Below, one piece after another: positions 16,459 to 59,128 of a DNA stretch of 64,000 nt. Every line of letters starts with the position of its first letter. Positions within the stretch are counted from its first letter, which is position 1. A program made the translations under genes and the position numbers. The notes below the pieces were generated by a model. It was not told the origin of the DNA. It worked only from the letters and a program-made list of their open reading frames with translations, and ran no database searches. Source of the stretch: Ensifer canadensis (GTDB lineage Bacteria > Pseudomonadota > Alphaproteobacteria > Rhizobiales > Rhizobiaceae); NCBI RefSeq assembly GCF_017488845.2, contig NZ_CP083370.1:2232001-2296000 (forward strand). Direction: 5' to 3'.

Positions 16459-16613
16459 GGACCGCTCCTGCCCCAATCGAACATCTTTGCTAGCGCCGGC
16501 ATCGCCCGGCGCTTTGCGTTTGCCAAGCTTTCATGCTAGCGGCGGGGGCTTGCAGCGGCGCACGTCGGATAGGGCGTGCGGCGATTATGCAGAGCCAGCC
16601 GAAGGACAGAGCC

Positions 16614-17489
16614 TTGAGCGAGATCAGACTTTTCGTCACCACCACCGAGAAGCAGGCGGAAGCCGTGCTCGACCGCATGAGCGAGGTCTTCGGCGAAGAG
16701 GATTTTGCCATCGGCACGACGGAAGTCGACGAAAAGCGCGACGTCTGGGAAGCCTCGATCTACATGATGGCGGCCGACGAGGAGAGCGTCAACGAGCGGC
16801 TGACGGAGGCGCTTGCCGACGACTTTTCCCATCTTGCCATCGAACGCGAAGTGCTGCCGGATATCGACTGGATCGCCAAGTCGCTCGAGGGGCTGGCGCC
16901 CGTGCGCGCCGGCCGTTTCGTCGTGCATGGCTCCCATGACCGCGACAAGGTCCGCACCGGTGAGATCGCCATCGAGATCGAGGCCGGCCAGGCCTTCGGC
17001 ACCGGCCACCATGGCACGACCGCCGGCTGCCTCGAAGTGCTGGCGACCGTGGCGCGCACCCGCACGGTGCGCAACGTGCTCGACCTCGGCACCGGCAGCG
17101 GCGTGCTGGCGATCGCTGCCTGGAAGCTCCTGCATGTGACGGTGCTCGCCACCGACATCGACCCGATTGCCACCCGCGTTGCCGAGGAAAATGCCCGCCG
17201 CAACGGCGTCGTCACCGGCATGACCTTTGCGACGGCCCCCGGCTTTCACTCCACCGCCTTCAGCGGCAACGGCCCCTTCGACCTGATCATCGCCAACATC
17301 CTCGCCCGTCCGCTGATGAAGATGGCAGCGCAACTGACCGCCAACCTCGCCCCCGGCGGCTCGGTGATCCTCTCGGGCATTCTTGCCGAGCAGCGCTGGA
17401 AGGTGCTTGCCGCCTATAACGGGCAGCACCTGCGCCATGTCCGCACCATCTGGCGCAACGGCTGGGTGACGATCCACCTGGAGAAGTGA
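16614..17489 (+). CDS. prmA: Ribosomal protein L11 methyltransferase
   Basis: A 291-residue SAM-dependent enzyme that methylates ribosomal protein L11. Visible motifs are GTGHHGTTAGCLEVL, the SAM-binding loop VLDLGTGSGVLAIAAWKL, VLATDIDPIA, and the catalytic-region motif FDLIIANILARPL. I choose TTG 16614 (product MSEIRLFVTTTEK), which has GAAGGA 8 nt upstream and matches the N-terminus usual in rhizobial PrmA; ATG 16587 would add nine residues. Monocistronic as far as can be seen. Confidence 0.93.
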   Translation: MSEIRLFVTTTEKQAEAVLDRMSEVFGEEDFAIGTTEVDEKRDVWEASIYMMAADEESVNERLTEALADDFSHLAIEREVLPDIDWIAKSLEGLAPVRAGRFVVHGSHDRDKVRTGEIAIEIEAGQAFGTGHHGTTAGCLEVLATVARTRTVRNVLDLGTGSGVLAIAAWKLLHVTVLATDIDPIATRVAEENARRNGVVTGMTFATAPGFHSTAFSGNGPFDLIIANILARPLMKMAAQLTANLAPGGSVILSGILAEQRWKVLAAYNGQHLRHVRTIWRNGWVTIHLEK

Positions 17490-17555: not shown

Positions 17556-19424
17556 CTATCCCTTCGCCGGACGGCGGTGGGAGAACTGAGCGATGGATAT
17601 GCCGGCTTTGCGGAAGCCGTTCAGCCAGAGCTCTGCATCCTCTGACAAGGAGCAAATCTTCGCGGTGTTTCGGGCGTAGACGTCTGCATCGAACGCCGCG
17701 GGCATCGCGCGCGTTATGATTGCCGCCTCCTCCGCCCTGCCGAGCTGGGCGAGACAGGCCGCCTGGTTCAATCGGAAGAAATATGGCGGATCGATCAGGG
17801 TTCCGTAGGCGGTCAATGCCGCATCGAACCTGCGCGCGAGATAGTAGCAGTCCCCGAGACTGGAGAGGAACGCCGGCGGCAGGAGCGGCTCGAACTTGCA
17901 GCCCCGTTCGACAAGCGCCAAGCCTTCTTCATGCATTCCCGCATAGGAAAGGATCATGCCTCGGGCGACAAGGACGTTCATGTCGCGCGGGCTCATCGAG
18001 ATCGCAATGTCGGAGTAGCGCAGGGCCTCGTCAATTTTCCCGACCAACAGAAAGCATGCAGCAACGCTGGTGAGGACGAATGGATCGTTTCTGTCGGCAG
18101 CGATCGCCCGCGCGGCATATTCCTGGCACTCAACCTCAAGCCCGGCATCTGTCGCAGCATCAGGCTCACTGAACCGCCAGTATGCGTAGAGCAATCCTAG
18201 CGAGGCGAGAGCGGGCGCATAGGTCGGGTCGACGCGGATCGCCTCCTGCATGTGCCCGCGTGCACCCTGTTCGTCACCGTTGCGCCAGGCAGCCCCTGCC
18301 CGGAGCCAGGACCTATAGGCGGAGATATCCGTCGTCGAACTCCTTGCGCGAACGGCCCCGGCCACCTCTTGAAGATTGAAAAACAGGCGACCTATGATCG
18401 CATCGACGATTTGATCCTGGACCGCGAAGATGTCCGCCATTTCGCGATCGAATCTCTCGGCAAAGACATGCGCCCCTGTCTGTGTGTCGATCAATTGCAC
18501 CGAGGCGCGCAGGCGCTGGCCAGCCAGCCGGACACTGCCTTCGAGGACGAATTCCGCACCGAGCTGCCGGCCCACCTCCGCCACGTTCACCGATTGGCCC
18601 CTGTAGCTGAACGTGGTGTTTCTGGCGACGACGGAGAGATTCCGGAAGCGGCTCAGCTCGGTGATGATGTCCTCGGTGAGGCCGTCGGCGAAGTAGTCCT
18701 GCTCTGTGCTTCCCGACATGTTCGTGAGAGGCAGAACGGCGATGGTGGTAAATTCCCTGCCGCGAGAAAGTGTCGTTTGGAGCAGTGCCCGGGCCGTCTC
18801 CATTCCGAAGATCCTGACCGGCGCAGCAATGTTCTTGAGCTGCACCAGTCCGAGGTCTTTCATCACGACGGGGATCTTGCCTCGGACTTCATTGTGCACC
18901 TTCTCGGACATGCAGATGCCACCCGGCTCGGCCAGCGCTTCCAGTCGCGCTGCGATGTTGACCCCCTCGCCATAAATGTCTGAACCCTCGCCGATGACAT
19001 CGCCGATGTTGATGCCGATGCGGAGCAGGATCTCGCTGGGTTCTGGAACACCGGCATTCGCCTCCGCCATCTTCCGCTGAAGCTCGAGCGCGGCCTCGAC
19101 GACGTCAATCGCGCTGGCGAATTCGACCAGCACGCCGTCGCCCATCAGCTTGACGATGCGTCCTCCATGGGCGCGCACCACCGGGTAGAGCACATGACTT
19201 CGCCGCTCCTTCAGCGTCTCATACGTCCCGGCTTCATCGGCTTCCATCATGCGGGAATAGCCGACCACATCGGCGACGAGGATCGCAACAAGGCGGCGGT
19301 GGATTGATTTCTCGACCACGCTCCCACGTCTCCTTCGGGTGGCGCACTCTGTTGGGAAACCGAACTCGTCCACAATATCGGGATTGTGACCTTGTGCAAA
19401 ATCATCTTGTGGCACGTGCTCCAT
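17556..19424 (-). CDS. Class III adenylate/guanylate cyclase with TPR region
   Basis: Up to 622 residues. The cyclase homology domain starts near residue 43 with the metal-binding ILVADVVGYSRMM, continues with KLMGDGVLVEFAS (second Asp), and includes GINIGDVIGEGSDIYGEGVN. A middle part (TIAVLPLTNMSGS and YFADGLTEDIITELSRF) resembles the TolB/FlgO-like module found in this architecture. The C-terminal half is a run of TPR-like helices. This multi-copy family is typical of rhizobia; it makes cAMP in response to unknown partners bound by the TPRs. A GTG at 19319 may be the true start, since homologues usually begin near EKSIHRRLVAIL. Confidence 0.9.
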   Translation of the reverse strand: MEHVPQDDFAQGHNPDIVDEFGFPTECATRRRRGSVVEKSIHRRLVAILVADVVGYSRMMEADEAGTYETLKERRSHVLYPVVRAHGGRIVKLMGDGVLVEFASAIDVVEAALELQRKMAEANAGVPEPSEILLRIGINIGDVIGEGSDIYGEGVNIAARLEALAEPGGICMSEKVHNEVRGKIPVVMKDLGLVQLKNIAAPVRIFGMETARALLQTTLSRGREFTTIAVLPLTNMSGSTEQDYFADGLTEDIITELSRFRNLSVVARNTTFSYRGQSVNVAEVGRQLGAEFVLEGSVRLAGQRLRASVQLIDTQTGAHVFAERFDREMADIFAVQDQIVDAIIGRLFFNLQEVAGAVRARSSTTDISAYRSWLRAGAAWRNGDEQGARGHMQEAIRVDPTYAPALASLGLLYAYWRFSEPDAATDAGLEVECQEYAARAIAADRNDPFVLTSVAACFLLVGKIDEALRYSDIAISMSPRDMNVLVARGMILSYAGMHEEGLALVERGCKFEPLLPPAFLSSLGDCYYLARRFDAALTAYGTLIDPPYFFRLNQAACLAQLGRAEEAAIITRAMPAAFDADVYARNTAKICSLSEDAELWLNGFRKAGISIAQFSHRRPAKG

Positions 19425-19483: not shown

Positions 19484-19523
19484 AAAAACGAAAAGGCCGC
19501 CACGTCTTTCATGACGGGCGGCC
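19484..19523 (-). terminator. Strong Rho-independent terminator of the predicted sRNA
   Basis: On the minus strand GGCCGCCC pairs with GGCGGCC across a 14-nt loop, followed by TTTTCGTTTTT. It ends about 60 bp before the adenylate cyclase start, so most upstream transcripts should stop here. Confidence 0.85.
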
Positions 19524-19680
19524 CTTCGAAACAAAGGCGATGCCAGGGGCATCGCCTGCTGGTTCGGCTTGAGACCGAACCATGCCCGCGAGCCTGAGGA
19601 GGAGGAGCGCTCGAGCGGGCGTCTACCGTTCCGAAATTGACCACCCTTGAGGGAGGAGGAGAACAGAGTGATCAACTATT
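19484..19680 (-). ncRNA. Predicted trans-acting sRNA with CUCCUCC loops (alpha-r14/CUCKOO-like)
   Basis: Reading the minus strand, five hairpins follow one another. (1) 19673-19639, GATCAC/GTGGTC, with loop containing CTCCTCCTCCCTC. (2) 19620-19584, GCCCGC/GCGGGC, with loop CTCCTCCTCC. (3) 19581-19561, GGTTCGG/CCGAACC. (4) 19556-19536, GGCGATGCC/GGCATCGCC. (5) The terminator at 19523-19495 with a U-rich tail. Exposed anti-Shine-Dalgarno CUCCUCC loops and a terminal hairpin are the hallmarks of alphaproteobacterial alpha-r14 (NfeR1-type) and CUCKOO sRNAs, which repress many mRNAs. The 5' end is approximate. It could also be the 5' leader of the cyclase gene, but the terminator argues for an independent RNA. 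Confidence 0.65.
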
Positions 19681-19836
19681 CTCGGAACTGCAGGCTTTTG
19701 AACCACCGGATGTTCGTCCGTGTTCGTTGAGGCGGCTTATAAACTATTATTCCGATAGAGATAGCAGCTTCTTGGCATAGGAGCCATGCAGAAAGCGCAT
19801 ATGTATGGTAAATGAGCAATTGCCCTCTAAAGCATT

Positions 19837-19931
19837 TCCGATTTATGCGGAATCGCAAAAACGCTCTATCTCTTTGTTTTTACACATTTCCTGACGGAAA
19901 ACCGCTTCGCACTTTTCCTGGAAATGCTCTG
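19837..19931 (-). repeat. Dispersed rhizobial intergenic repeat, family A copy 3 (longest)
   Basis: Inverted copy of the family A core (CGGAAAACCGCTTCGCACTT on the plus strand), extended at 19837-19875 by a segment with AGCATTTCCGATTTATGCGG, which gives a two-palindrome mosaic layout. Confidence 0.7.
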
Positions 19932-20055
19932 ATTCTGTGCACGTCCTGCCGCCGGCATGCCCGGCGGGATCTCGCCTCTTTCCTCCCCATGGACGTTTCC
20001 GCTAAGATCGCGCATCTTTCCCGCGGTTCTCCGCCCAATTTACCGGAAATCCCTC

Positions 20056-21891
20056 ATGTTTCAGTCCTTTGAAGTCACCTCCACGCCCCAGTTCGGCAAG
20101 GAGCGCACAGAAGCCTTGCGCGCCACCTTCGCCGCCCTCGGCATCGACGGGTTTCTCGTACCCCGTGCCGACGAGTTCCAGGGCGAGTATGTGCCGGCAT
20201 CGTCGGAGCGGCTTTCCTGGCTCACCGGCTTTACCGGTTCCGCCGGCGTCGCCCTCATTACGCAGCGTCAGGCTGTCGTTTTCGTCGATGGACGTTACGT
20301 GACCCAGCTGAAGGAACAGGTCGACGGCCAGGTCTTTATCGGCGGCGATCTCATCGGCGAGCCGCCGCATCTCTGGCTGGAAAATAACGGCACCAAGGGC
20401 TTCAGGCTCGGCATCGACCCGTGGCTGCACACAGGCGCTGAAGTGCGCCGGCTGGAAAAGGCGCTTGCCGTCCTCGGCGGCTCGCTCGTCTTCCTCGACC
20501 ACAACCCGCTCGACCGCATCTGGACCGGTCGCCCGGCAGCCCCGCTCGGCCGCGTCTCCATCCAGCCGATCGAGCAGGCCGGCGAGCTTGCCAAGGACAA
20601 GATCGCGACCATCGCTGGCGGCCTCGAAAAGGCCGGTGCCAGCGCCGTGGTTTTGACCGACCCCTCCTCCGTCGCCTGGACCTTCAATATCCGCGGTACC
20701 GACGTGCCGCACACGCCGCATCCGCTCGCCCGCGCCATCATCCATGCCGACGGCCGCGCCGAGATCTTCCTCGACAAGCGCAAGACCGGCATCGAGCAGG
20801 AAGCCTATCTCACCCAGATCGCCGAGATCGCAGCACCCTCGACCTTCGACGACCGCCTGTCGACGCTCAGTACTGCGGGTGCTGCCGTCATGCTCGACCC
20901 GGACCTTGCCTCCTTCGCCATTTCCGAGCTGATCCGCTCCAAGGGCGGCAAGATCGTCGAGGCCGTCGACCCAGCCCGCCTGCCCCGCGCCCAGAAGAAC
21001 AGGGCCGAGATCGAGGGCTCGACCCGCGCGCATCTGCAGGATGGCGCCGCGATGGTCGAATTCCTCGCCTGGCTCGACAAGGCCGAGCCCGGCACCGTCA
21101 CCGAGATCGGCGCTGCCAACCAGCTGGAAGCCGCCCGTGCCACCGTCGGCGAGCGCATGCAAAACCCACTCAAGGACATTTCCTTCGACACCATCTCCGG
21201 TGCCGGCTCGCATGCGGCGATCATGCACTACCGCGTGACGACCGAAACCGACCGCGCGATCGAAGCAGGCACCATGTTCCTGATCGATTCCGGCGCGCAA
21301 TACATCAACGGCACCACCGACATCACCCGCACGGTGGCGGTCGGCGCGGTTCCGGAAGAGCAGAAGCGCTTCTTCACGCTGGTGCTGAAGGGCATGATCG
21401 CCATCAGCACCGCGCGTTTCCCCAAGGGCTCGCGCGGTGTCGACCTTGACCCCTTGGCCCGCATCGCGCTGTGGAAGGCTGGCGCCGACTACGCCCATGG
21501 CACCGGCCACGGCGTCGGCTCCTACCTCTCGGTGCATGAGGGACCGCAGCGCATCGCCCGGCTTTCAACCCAGGAACTGCTGCCCGGCATGATCCTGTCG
21601 AACGAGCCCGGCTATTACCGCCCCGGCGCCTTCGGCATCCGCATCGAAAACCTCATCGTGGTGCAACCGGCCGAAGAGATCGCCGGCGGCGACCTGGCGA
21701 TGCTCGGCTTCGACACGATCACCTATTGCCCGATCGACAGCCGCCTGGTGCTGCCGGCGTTGCTGACCGACGAGGAACTGGGCTGGTTCAACGCCTACCA
21801 CGCCGAGACGCGCGAAAAGCTGATGCCGCTGTTGGTGGGCGACGAGACCCGCAACTGGCTGAAGACCGCGACGAAAGCCATCACACGCTGA
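20056..21891 (+). CDS. pepP: Xaa-Pro aminopeptidase (M24B, aminopeptidase P)
   Basis: A 611-residue cytoplasmic metallopeptidase that removes N-terminal residues preceding proline. It has the double creatinase-like N-terminal regions followed by the pita-bread domain. Metal ligands are visible in order: Asp in FLIDSGAQY, Asp in NGTTDITRTV, His in GTGHGVGSYL, Glu in LSNEPGYYRP and Glu in IRIENLIV. The length matches the long three-domain eukaryote-like aminopeptidase P found in alphaproteobacteria. ATG 20056 begins the conserved MFQSFEVTSTP; the upstream open frame to 19957 has no similarity. Confidence 0.93.
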   Translation: MFQSFEVTSTPQFGKERTEALRATFAALGIDGFLVPRADEFQGEYVPASSERLSWLTGFTGSAGVALITQRQAVVFVDGRYVTQLKEQVDGQVFIGGDLIGEPPHLWLENNGTKGFRLGIDPWLHTGAEVRRLEKALAVLGGSLVFLDHNPLDRIWTGRPAAPLGRVSIQPIEQAGELAKDKIATIAGGLEKAGASAVVLTDPSSVAWTFNIRGTDVPHTPHPLARAIIHADGRAEIFLDKRKTGIEQEAYLTQIAEIAAPSTFDDRLSTLSTAGAAVMLDPDLASFAISELIRSKGGKIVEAVDPARLPRAQKNRAEIEGSTRAHLQDGAAMVEFLAWLDKAEPGTVTEIGAANQLEAARATVGERMQNPLKDISFDTISGAGSHAAIMHYRVTTETDRAIEAGTMFLIDSGAQYINGTTDITRTVAVGAVPEEQKRFFTLVLKGMIAISTARFPKGSRGVDLDPLARIALWKAGADYAHGTGHGVGSYLSVHEGPQRIARLSTQELLPGMILSNEPGYYRPGAFGIRIENLIVVQPAEEIAGGDLAMLGFDTITYCPIDSRLVLPALLTDEELGWFNAYHAETREKLMPLLVGDETRNWLKTATKAITR

Positions 21892-58716: not shown

Positions 58717-58727
58717 AAGGAAGAAAT

Positions 58728-59128
58728 CGCCAGTTGGCCTGTAAGCCGGGTTCTGTATGGCCCCATTGCCCGAAGACAACGGAACGTGGCAGCCATTCAT
58801 CTGGGACTACGTTTGCACGCAGCCTCTTGCAACCCACCCGGATGACTGGCCCGGAAACAGGCTGGACGCTTGCGCGCCCGCGTCATCCCTATTCGGTCTT
58901 GCTCCCGGTGGGGTTTGCCGTGCCGTCCATGTCGCCATGTCCGCGGTGGGCTCTTACCCCACCCTTTCACCCTTACTCCGCAAGCGGAGCGGTTTGCTTT
59001 CTGTGGCACTTTCCCTGAGGTCGCCCTCGCCGGACGTTATCCGGCACCGTATTTCCGTGGAGCCCGGACTTTCCTCCCCCCGCGGCCTTTCGGCACTTGC
59101 GGAGCGCGGCTGCCCGGCCAACTGGCAG
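58728..59128 (-). ncRNA. rnpB: RNase P RNA (type A)
   Basis: The minus-strand sequence has the conserved 5' part with GGAGGAAAGTCCGGGCTCC, the core GTAAGGGTGAAAGGGTG with GGTAAGAGCCCACCG, and the 3' end ACAGAACCCGGCTTACAGGC. The terminal GCCAGTTGGCC and GGCCAACTGGC pair as helix P1. About 400 nt, the usual size. It is the catalytic subunit that trims tRNA 5' ends. The 3' tail (TTTCTTCCTTC) is a weak terminator. Ends are estimated from pairing. Confidence 0.95.

Follow-up and report, generated by a model that had tools for sequence, protein, structure and literature searches.

A conserved small RNA gene between prmA and pepP of the Rhizobiaceae with two anti-Shine-Dalgarno loops and an LsrB-type promoter box

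The minus strand of a 64,000-nt stretch of Ensifer canadensis DNA (the window) forms five successive stem-loops, two of which expose CUCCUCC and the last of which is a terminator; the structured part is 19688-19491. They belong to a single orthologous, vertically inherited Rhizobiaceae sRNA gene located between prmA and pepP. At a probability of about three in four, the product is an LsrB-activated, trans-acting anti-Shine-Dalgarno sRNA that serves as a translational repressor of several mRNAs. The original prediction, of an anti-Shine-Dalgarno kind of sRNA gene with its own terminator, is supported by the hairpins, their covariation and the constancy of the loops. The parts of the RNA, in positions of the window, are as follows.

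19689..19729, minus strand: predicted 5′ leader, 41 nt, for the sRNA in its stand-alone form, from the predicted start
19628..19688, minus strand: hairpin 1 (a 7-bp outer and a 12-bp inner stem), its loop with CUCCUCCUCCC at 19661-19651; from folds and covariation
19584..19620, minus strand: hairpin 2, its loop with CUCCUCCUCCUC; from covariation
19560..19582, minus strand: hairpin 3; from covariation
19535..19557, minus strand: hairpin 4, terminator-like, so that the RNA could end as early as about 19528; from the terminator scan
19484..19527, minus strand: hairpin 5 and U tract, a second, strong terminator; from the terminator scan

The loops exposed by hairpins 1 and 2 are CTCCTCCTCCC and CTCCTCCTCCTC. 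Five hairpins, two CTCCTCC loops and a GC-rich stem with a U tract had been noted, and folds and terminator scan show all of them to be present in the window. The range originally given for them falls short, since hairpin 1 starts beyond it with an outer 7-bp stem (GUUCCGA/UCGGAAC) and the structured part reaches 19688. This outer stem covaries in one relative (L017), where it is GUUCUGA/UCAGAAC. The minus strand of 19484-19680 folds with -96.8 kcal/mol, as against -65.5 +/- 4.0 for 200 dinucleotide shuffles, none of which is as low (z -7.85). Other z-scores are -6.99 and, for the longer predicted transcript, -6.84.

Stems without covariation had been named at the outset as what would count against the prediction. 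The stems do covary. In alignment A3 (55 rows, 54 distinct), 37 of the 47 pairs have two-sided changes and 96.2% of the base-pair cells are standard pairs, a figure to be read with the fact that the rows are related and were fitted to the model's structure, which favours pairing. In controls with the partners slid, only 34-45% are paired. Two-sided cells number 454 compared with 126 in shuffles, and none of 500 shuffles is as high. Within A3, two-sided changes affect all 19 pairs of hairpin 1 and all eight modelled pairs of hairpin 3 (93.5% of cells paired), and five of the ten pairs in both hairpin 2 (99.8% paired) and hairpin 4 (99.3% paired). Through these changes UCCUCC is kept in the hairpin 1 loop in 55/55 rows, in the hairpin 2 loop in 54/55 and in both loops in 54/55. 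For hairpin 1 the mean entropy of the loop is 0.38 bits and that of the stem 1.47; in hairpin 2 stem and loop are both constant, and it is the most constant part of the RNA. Conservation extends over a block of approximately 345 bp, from about 100 bp ahead of the predicted start as far as the terminator. Because conservation ends there and the base pairs covary strongly, the hairpin structure is beyond chance.

Hairpin 5 is a terminator, as proposed, and hairpin 4, which had no such part in the first account, is also terminator-like in the scan. For counts among relatives, 172 loci were pooled (55 of A3 and 117 among the matches listed; L144 and L213 were excluded as chance matches in GC-rich DNA), leaving 165 after those with the same 90-nt key were dropped; near-copies remain among them, and loci and locus pairs are related, hence not independent. 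Of the 152 loci that could be scored (13 of the 165 could not), 109 have four or more T following hairpin 4, which is therefore the probable 3′ end of the RNA in many relatives. In Sinorhizobium and some of its kin this T run is broken and hairpin 5 follows. Hairpin 5 is present in 35 distinct sequences, that of the window included, with stems that are changed yet paired. From the predicted start near 19729 the transcript would measure 201 nt if it stopped with hairpin 4, and 246 nt if it ran on through the hairpin 5 T run.

By DNA search, 17 of 41 related genomes have the gene, namely all 16 of the genus (its own genome included), one of the nine others of the family and none of the 16 others of the order. 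Two covariance models, R1 from 17 sequences and R2 from 55, were used for wider counts. Across 297 Rhizobiaceae genomes, R1 at E <= 0.01 has matches in 58 genomes and 25 of 109 genera, and R2 at E <= 0.001 in 74 genomes and 29 of 109 genera (synteny was checked for part of the weak ones); these counts reflect stricter filters, by which weak matches are lost, and in the 223 of 297 genomes that lack an R2 match at E <= 0.001 the gene is lost, diverged or missed. Over 347 genomes of the order, six R2 matches exceed 100 bits, all in the gene's own family, and the others reach at most 32.8 bits. At 14 weak R2 places (L221-L234, including two from the own family) neither prmA nor pepP is present within 1.7-3.2 kb of sequence. 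Nearly every genome with a match has a single copy; in its own genome the single R2 match has 158.2 bits and the next, an ar14 copy, 24.0 bits.

The place of the gene is strongly conserved. At 66 of 70 loci (L001-L017 from the DNA search and L033-L085 from R1, with L017 and L043 being the same place) prmA and/or pepP adjoin the RNA, and the remaining four score no more than 27.9 bits. A pattern scan of named genomes for hairpin 2 alone yielded at least 119 stretches, and 117 of 119 among the matches listed are beside prmA and/or pepP. The genera among the matches listed are Sinorhizobium/Ensifer, Rhizobium, Agrobacterium, Neorhizobium, Shinella and Pararhizobium, and also Pseudorhizobium, Ciceribacter, Xaviernesmea and Ferranicluibacter; Mycoplana is seen in the set used for a prmA tree. 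In the window the neighbouring genes are these.

16533..17489, plus strand: prmA, conserved neighbour (Pfam PrmA, synteny)
17556..19424, minus strand: adenylate/guanylate cyclase-TPR gene, downstream and outside the conserved unit (Pfam Guanylate_cyc)
19957..21891, plus strand: pepP (M24 Xaa-Pro aminopeptidase), conserved divergent neighbour (Pfam Peptidase_M24, synteny)

The true pepP start is probably the ATG at 20056, because relatives begin with the same MFQSFEVTS. [At about 19840-19930, between the sRNA promoter and pepP, there is a dispersed repeat (GAGCATTTCC...GGAAATG), and a similar stretch occurs elsewhere in L007.]

As the cyclase gene is on the same strand and starts about 60-170 nt downstream of the RNA, the latter could be thought of as the 5′ leader or attenuator of that gene. 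This is scarcely credible, given that two successive terminators stand before the cyclase gene and that conservation of the RNA extends to loci without a tblastn match to the cyclase, where convergent prmA is downstream instead. At the loci examined, tblastn detected the cyclase at the window's own locus and at no other, and the RNA therefore does not belong to it. The cyclase gene is a local insertion between prmA and the sRNA gene. Its association with the RNA, which the original prediction proposed as a landmark for comparing synteny, is fortuitous, and the neighbours that are conserved are prmA and pepP.

The counterpart in Sinorhizobium meliloti is very probably Sm26/SmelC531, because its collinear place and its length agree. 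In S. meliloti 1021 tmRNA is at 2291143-2291463(+), the 238-nt SmelC531 at 2321050-2321287(-) and rnpB at 2356793-2357134(-) (PMC7143759, PMC2873474 table 4). The landmark in the window is the following.

58726-59125, minus strand: rnpB (RNase P RNA), from Rfam

The order tmRNA(+)-RNA(-)-rnpB(-) has gaps of 29.6 and 35.5 kb in S. meliloti, and of 33.1 and 39.0 kb in the genome of the window, where tmRNA was located with its alpha form (RF01849), RF00023 giving sub-cut-off matches only. For S. meliloti 4H41 the predicted RNA has 195 nt up to hairpin 4 and 240 nt up to hairpin 5. SmelC531 was detected as a sequenced RNA of 238 nt (PMC2873474), and for Sm26 the accessible text of PMC2573895 reports Northern bands of about 200 and about 135 nt, together with signals on microarrays under acid, cold, oxidative and salt stress from a probe upstream of SmelC531. 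Thus 238 nt compares with 240 predicted, and the ~200-nt band with the 195 nt to hairpin 4; place, strand and size agree to about 4 kb and 7 nt in a comparison made from coordinates and lengths only. Some features do not accord. The reported flanks are SMc04453< and SMc01885>, the left one being oriented opposite to prmA(>) of 4H41; the 5′ end of SmelC531, counted from Sm26's predicted last U, is 7 nt inside the predicted start; and the start predicted for Sm26 itself lies another 160 nt upstream. No anti-Shine-Dalgarno, LsrB or family assignment for Sm26/SmelC531 was found in the accessible parts of PMC2573895 and PMC2873474, and the openly licensed literature searched holds neither functional work on it nor a description of the RNA family. 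The statement that the gene was unannotated thus stands for Rfam, and not for S. meliloti, where the counterpart was very probably detected in 2008-2010.

SmelC531 was typed as type 2, cis-antisense (PMC2873474 table 4), which is a further point against the identity. That the RNA is in general a cis-encoded antisense would gain from Agrobacterium-type loci, where its 3′ end is near the end of convergent prmA (e.g. L173, L149). In the window about 2 kb separate its end from prmA, its start is more than 300 nt from the pepP ATG, and covarying stems with constant loops are the pattern of a folded trans-acting RNA and not of an antisense strand, which makes antisense action very unlikely. [SmelC289 and SmelC023, which adjoin proS and polA, were rejected as counterparts, and so was Agrobacterium VrsA, which is in a different place. 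Atu1667 and a ~225-nt VtlR-activated RNA between atu0985 and atu0986 are leads as candidate Agrobacterium counterparts; the available part of the A. tumefaciens LsrB study names no such RNA.]

At the gathering threshold Rfam identifies only RNase P in the whole window. The sRNA has a weak full-length match to ar14 (RF02344) of 19.0 bits, where 58.8 is the gathering value, and 12.4 bits to CcsR1 (RF02791), where it is 65.3. By the Rfam cut-offs, therefore, it belongs to neither, and the suggested ar14 membership is not upheld, though relatives bridge to ar14 (L075 with 55.5, L070 with 39.3 and L056 with 29.0 bits). None of 19 relatives scanned with Rfam reaches cut-off. [Matches to RNAI (27.5 bits) and mir-71 were rejected as hairpin look-alikes below cut-off.] In the ar14 plan, as given in the accessible text of PMC10746234, three hairpins each have CCUCCUCCC. 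In the window exact CCUCCUCCC is found in hairpin 1 only, hairpin 2 having CCUCCUCCU, and in A3 it is present in 46/55 hairpin 1 and 12/55 hairpin 2 loops, with UCCUCC in the hairpin 4 loop of 2/55. The cuckoo RNAs of Reinkensmeier and Giegerich (2015) reportedly have two to four adjacent hairpins with CCUCCUCCC in each loop; by that definition hairpin 1 fits and hairpin 2 has CCUCCUCCU in its place. [A third CUCCUCC loop, in the hairpin 4 terminator and near the ar14 plan, is present at L075 2056-2153(+) and L070 2002-2139(-).]

Variable stems and constant CCUCCUCC loops are common to the sRNA and to ar14/NfeR1 (the kin of SmelA075/SmelA099), and one ar14 copy of the same genome has an LsrB-type box at the same distance from its start. 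In contrast to ar14, the prmA-pepP RNA has the added hairpins 3-5, of which 3 and 4 had been recognized as extra from the start, has no anti-Shine-Dalgarno in its terminator, and is about 245 rather than 123 nt in length. It also has a fixed locus with a single R2 match, while ar14 occurs in multiple copies, seven of them over cut-off elsewhere in this genome. That it is nevertheless a full ar14/NfeR1 (cuckoo) member, merely diverged, would accord with the weak full-length match, the bridging relatives, and the promoter box common to the one ar14 copy, which is the copy that R2 scores at 24.0 bits. With the window and all 19 relatives scanned below gathering, no anti-Shine-Dalgarno in the terminator loop, and a fixed locus as against seven copies elsewhere, full membership is unlikely. 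The RNA is better seen as one branch, distinct and tied to a fixed locus, within a larger anti-Shine-Dalgarno superfamily, common descent being likely. AbcR1 and AbcR2 (ar15) similarly have an anti-Shine-Dalgarno loop, and AbcR1 is also under LsrB control according to the portion of PMC8844928 available; they differ in locus, and no suhB-type match to the window is among nine matches listed. [Two further candidates in the window's own genome, L025 (C1:2012173-2012292) and L026 (C1:1480978-1481089), have CU-rich loops and ar14 scores of about 37 bits, which is under the cut-off.]

Upstream of the predicted start are the following elements.

19787..19800, minus strand: LsrB-type box ATGC-N6-TGCA (TGCA-N6-GCAT on the plus strand), TGCAGAAAGCGCAT, at -71 to -58 of the predicted start
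19775..19789, no strand assigned: adjoining palindrome GCATGGCTCCTATGC, which differs at one position from GCAT-N3-TG-N3-T, the box proposed for VtlR/LsrB
19736..19741, minus strand: -10 element TATAAG, with the start predicted at about 19729

The window thus has the TGCA-N6-GCAT of LsrB/VtlR promoters (about -72 to -57), relative to the predicted start. Of the pooled loci, 160 have at least 420 nt upstream. ATGC-N6-YGCAWR is upstream in 148 of these, where shuffles lead one to expect 1.37, and in 0/152 downstream control stretches; the motif was chosen after viewing these related loci, so that the counts show conservation and not LsrB binding. In 135 of the 148 box-bearing loci the distance from the box to a TATA-like -10 is 58-60 nt. 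Among the 162 loci with at least 300 nt upstream, which served for the VtlR-box count, the palindrome-like element is present in 106 (0.4 expected), and the strict GCAT-N3-TG-N3-T is exact in 37 (9.7 expected). The window is not among the latter, having AG for TG, and a consensus promoter scan of the window yielded no standard -35/-10 promoter. Both points count against LsrB control, which is therefore strongly inferred rather than a result. Box, spacing and TATA together are found at three places in the 8.1-Mb genome, one of which is the sRNA locus. [The other two, C6:64944-65007(+) and C6:191574-191636(-), have a 42-44 nt gap and TATA, and may be LsrB targets or chance.] Of the seven true ar14 copies of the genome, one, which belongs to a tandem pair as NfeR1 does, carries this box at -72, and the remaining six lack it at that distance. 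For NfeR1 itself, the accessible text of PMC10746234 reports that LsrB binds and activates the promoter at TGCA-N6-GCAT, -72 to -57. Activation of AbcR1 by LsrB, as described in the available part of PMC8844928, is disputed for S. meliloti in that of PMC7486931.

How the RNA may act follows from its loops. The 3′ end of 16S rRNA carries the CCUCC core, and the loops repeat this core and therefore should pair with GGAGG leaders. LsrB (VtlR), a LysR-type regulator reported to be redox-sensing, would activate a sigma-70-type promoter from the box at about -71 to -58, as it does for NfeR1, to give a transcript of about 200 nt to hairpin 4 or about 245 nt to hairpin 5. The two CU-rich loops would then pair with GGAGG-type ribosome-binding sites of mRNAs and block their translation in trans, while hairpins 3-5 would protect and terminate the RNA. 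Silencing of mRNAs by means of an anti-Shine-Dalgarno is described for NfeR1 and AbcR1/2 in the accessible texts of PMC10746234 and PMC8844928. If the reading is correct, there is a further LsrB-driven anti-Shine-Dalgarno sRNA beside NfeR1 and AbcR1. Its single fixed place, unlike the situation with ar14, would make a clean deletion possible. The S. meliloti RNA apparently detected in 2008-2010, and uncharacterized in the literature searched, would also acquire an identity and a testable function.

In many relatives the RNA does not stand alone. Directly before hairpin 1 there is an ORF of 46-64 codons in 78 of the 160 loci, and 71 of these 78 have the promoter box upstream of it, as a rule at a distance of about 115 nt. 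The other 82, like the window, have a short leader and yielded no ORF call. [The call requires an ATG, 42-70 codons and a purine-rich stretch, and some stand-alone labels (L151, L164, L182) may hide an ORF; three false ORFs (L006, L106, L158), which begin at or upstream of the promoter box, were removed by eye.] Third codon positions vary most in all three ORF groups, with 5720 changes against 2187 and 1859, 6704 against 3070 and 2963, and 306 against 112 and 38 at the other positions. By this pattern the small ORF of relatives is probably translated, and a dual-function transcript, an mRNA for a small basic protein of 46-64 amino acids whose 3′ UTR is the anti-Shine-Dalgarno RNA, with the ORF lost in Sinorhizobium and other lineages, is somewhat favoured. 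It extends the stand-alone anti-Shine-Dalgarno sRNA explanation and does not contradict it.

A prmA tree of 127 loci (33 of the 160, with too little prmA, are omitted) requires at least eight changes between the two architectures, of which starred branches force two; it does not fix their direction, that is, gain or loss of the ORF. Repeated loss from an ORF-bearing ancestor would be the simpler reading, because ORFs from scattered lineages align. Less favourable to a dual function, changed codons in one ORF group are more often non-synonymous (5212) than synonymous (3473), and a weak test for ORF remnants upstream of hairpin 1, using a loose motif, is positive in 14/41 stand-alone as against 10/14 ORF-bearing loci. 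Nor do the small ORFs of relatives match Pfam (0/8, PF06568 included) or NCBIfam (0/4), while two canonical DUF1127 controls do match PF06568; comparison of the ORF profile with DUF1127 by hhalign gives 40.8%.

Exact coordinates are available for 14 ORF-bearing loci, and in 10 of them the ORF runs into the RNA structure, its stop codon beginning 2-6 nt inside hairpin 1. Since this codon is inside the 5′ arm, ribosomes finishing the ORF would unfold or mask this first anti-Shine-Dalgarno hairpin. The RNA might then be an LsrB redox-regulated, translation-gated riboregulator whose anti-Shine-Dalgarno activity is coupled to translation, Sinorhizobium being among several lineages in which the ORF was dropped and the sRNA kept, though this is a tentative and rather doubtful proposal.

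The nearest published arrangement to the ORF-bearing loci is ccaF1-CcsR of Rhodobacter, as described in the accessible part of PMC12501420. As in these loci, the CCUCCUCCC-type hairpins of CcsR1-4 come after the gene for a small arginine-rich protein, ccaF1. Apart from the low CcsR1 score, they differ in that the window lacks the ORF and that the ORF of its relatives is not recognized as DUF1127. If the dual function is real, the ORF-bearing loci unite a small basic protein, an anti-Shine-Dalgarno RNA and a probable redox regulator, as reported in Rhodobacter, and permit one to ask how dual RNAs arise and lose their protein. [In the window's own genome, two DUF1127 small proteins are encoded beside tandem ar14 copies at L022, 541-684(-) and 1127-1270(-), with a GCATCGCACCCATGC palindrome near, which makes this a second place where small proteins and anti-Shine-Dalgarno sRNAs adjoin.]
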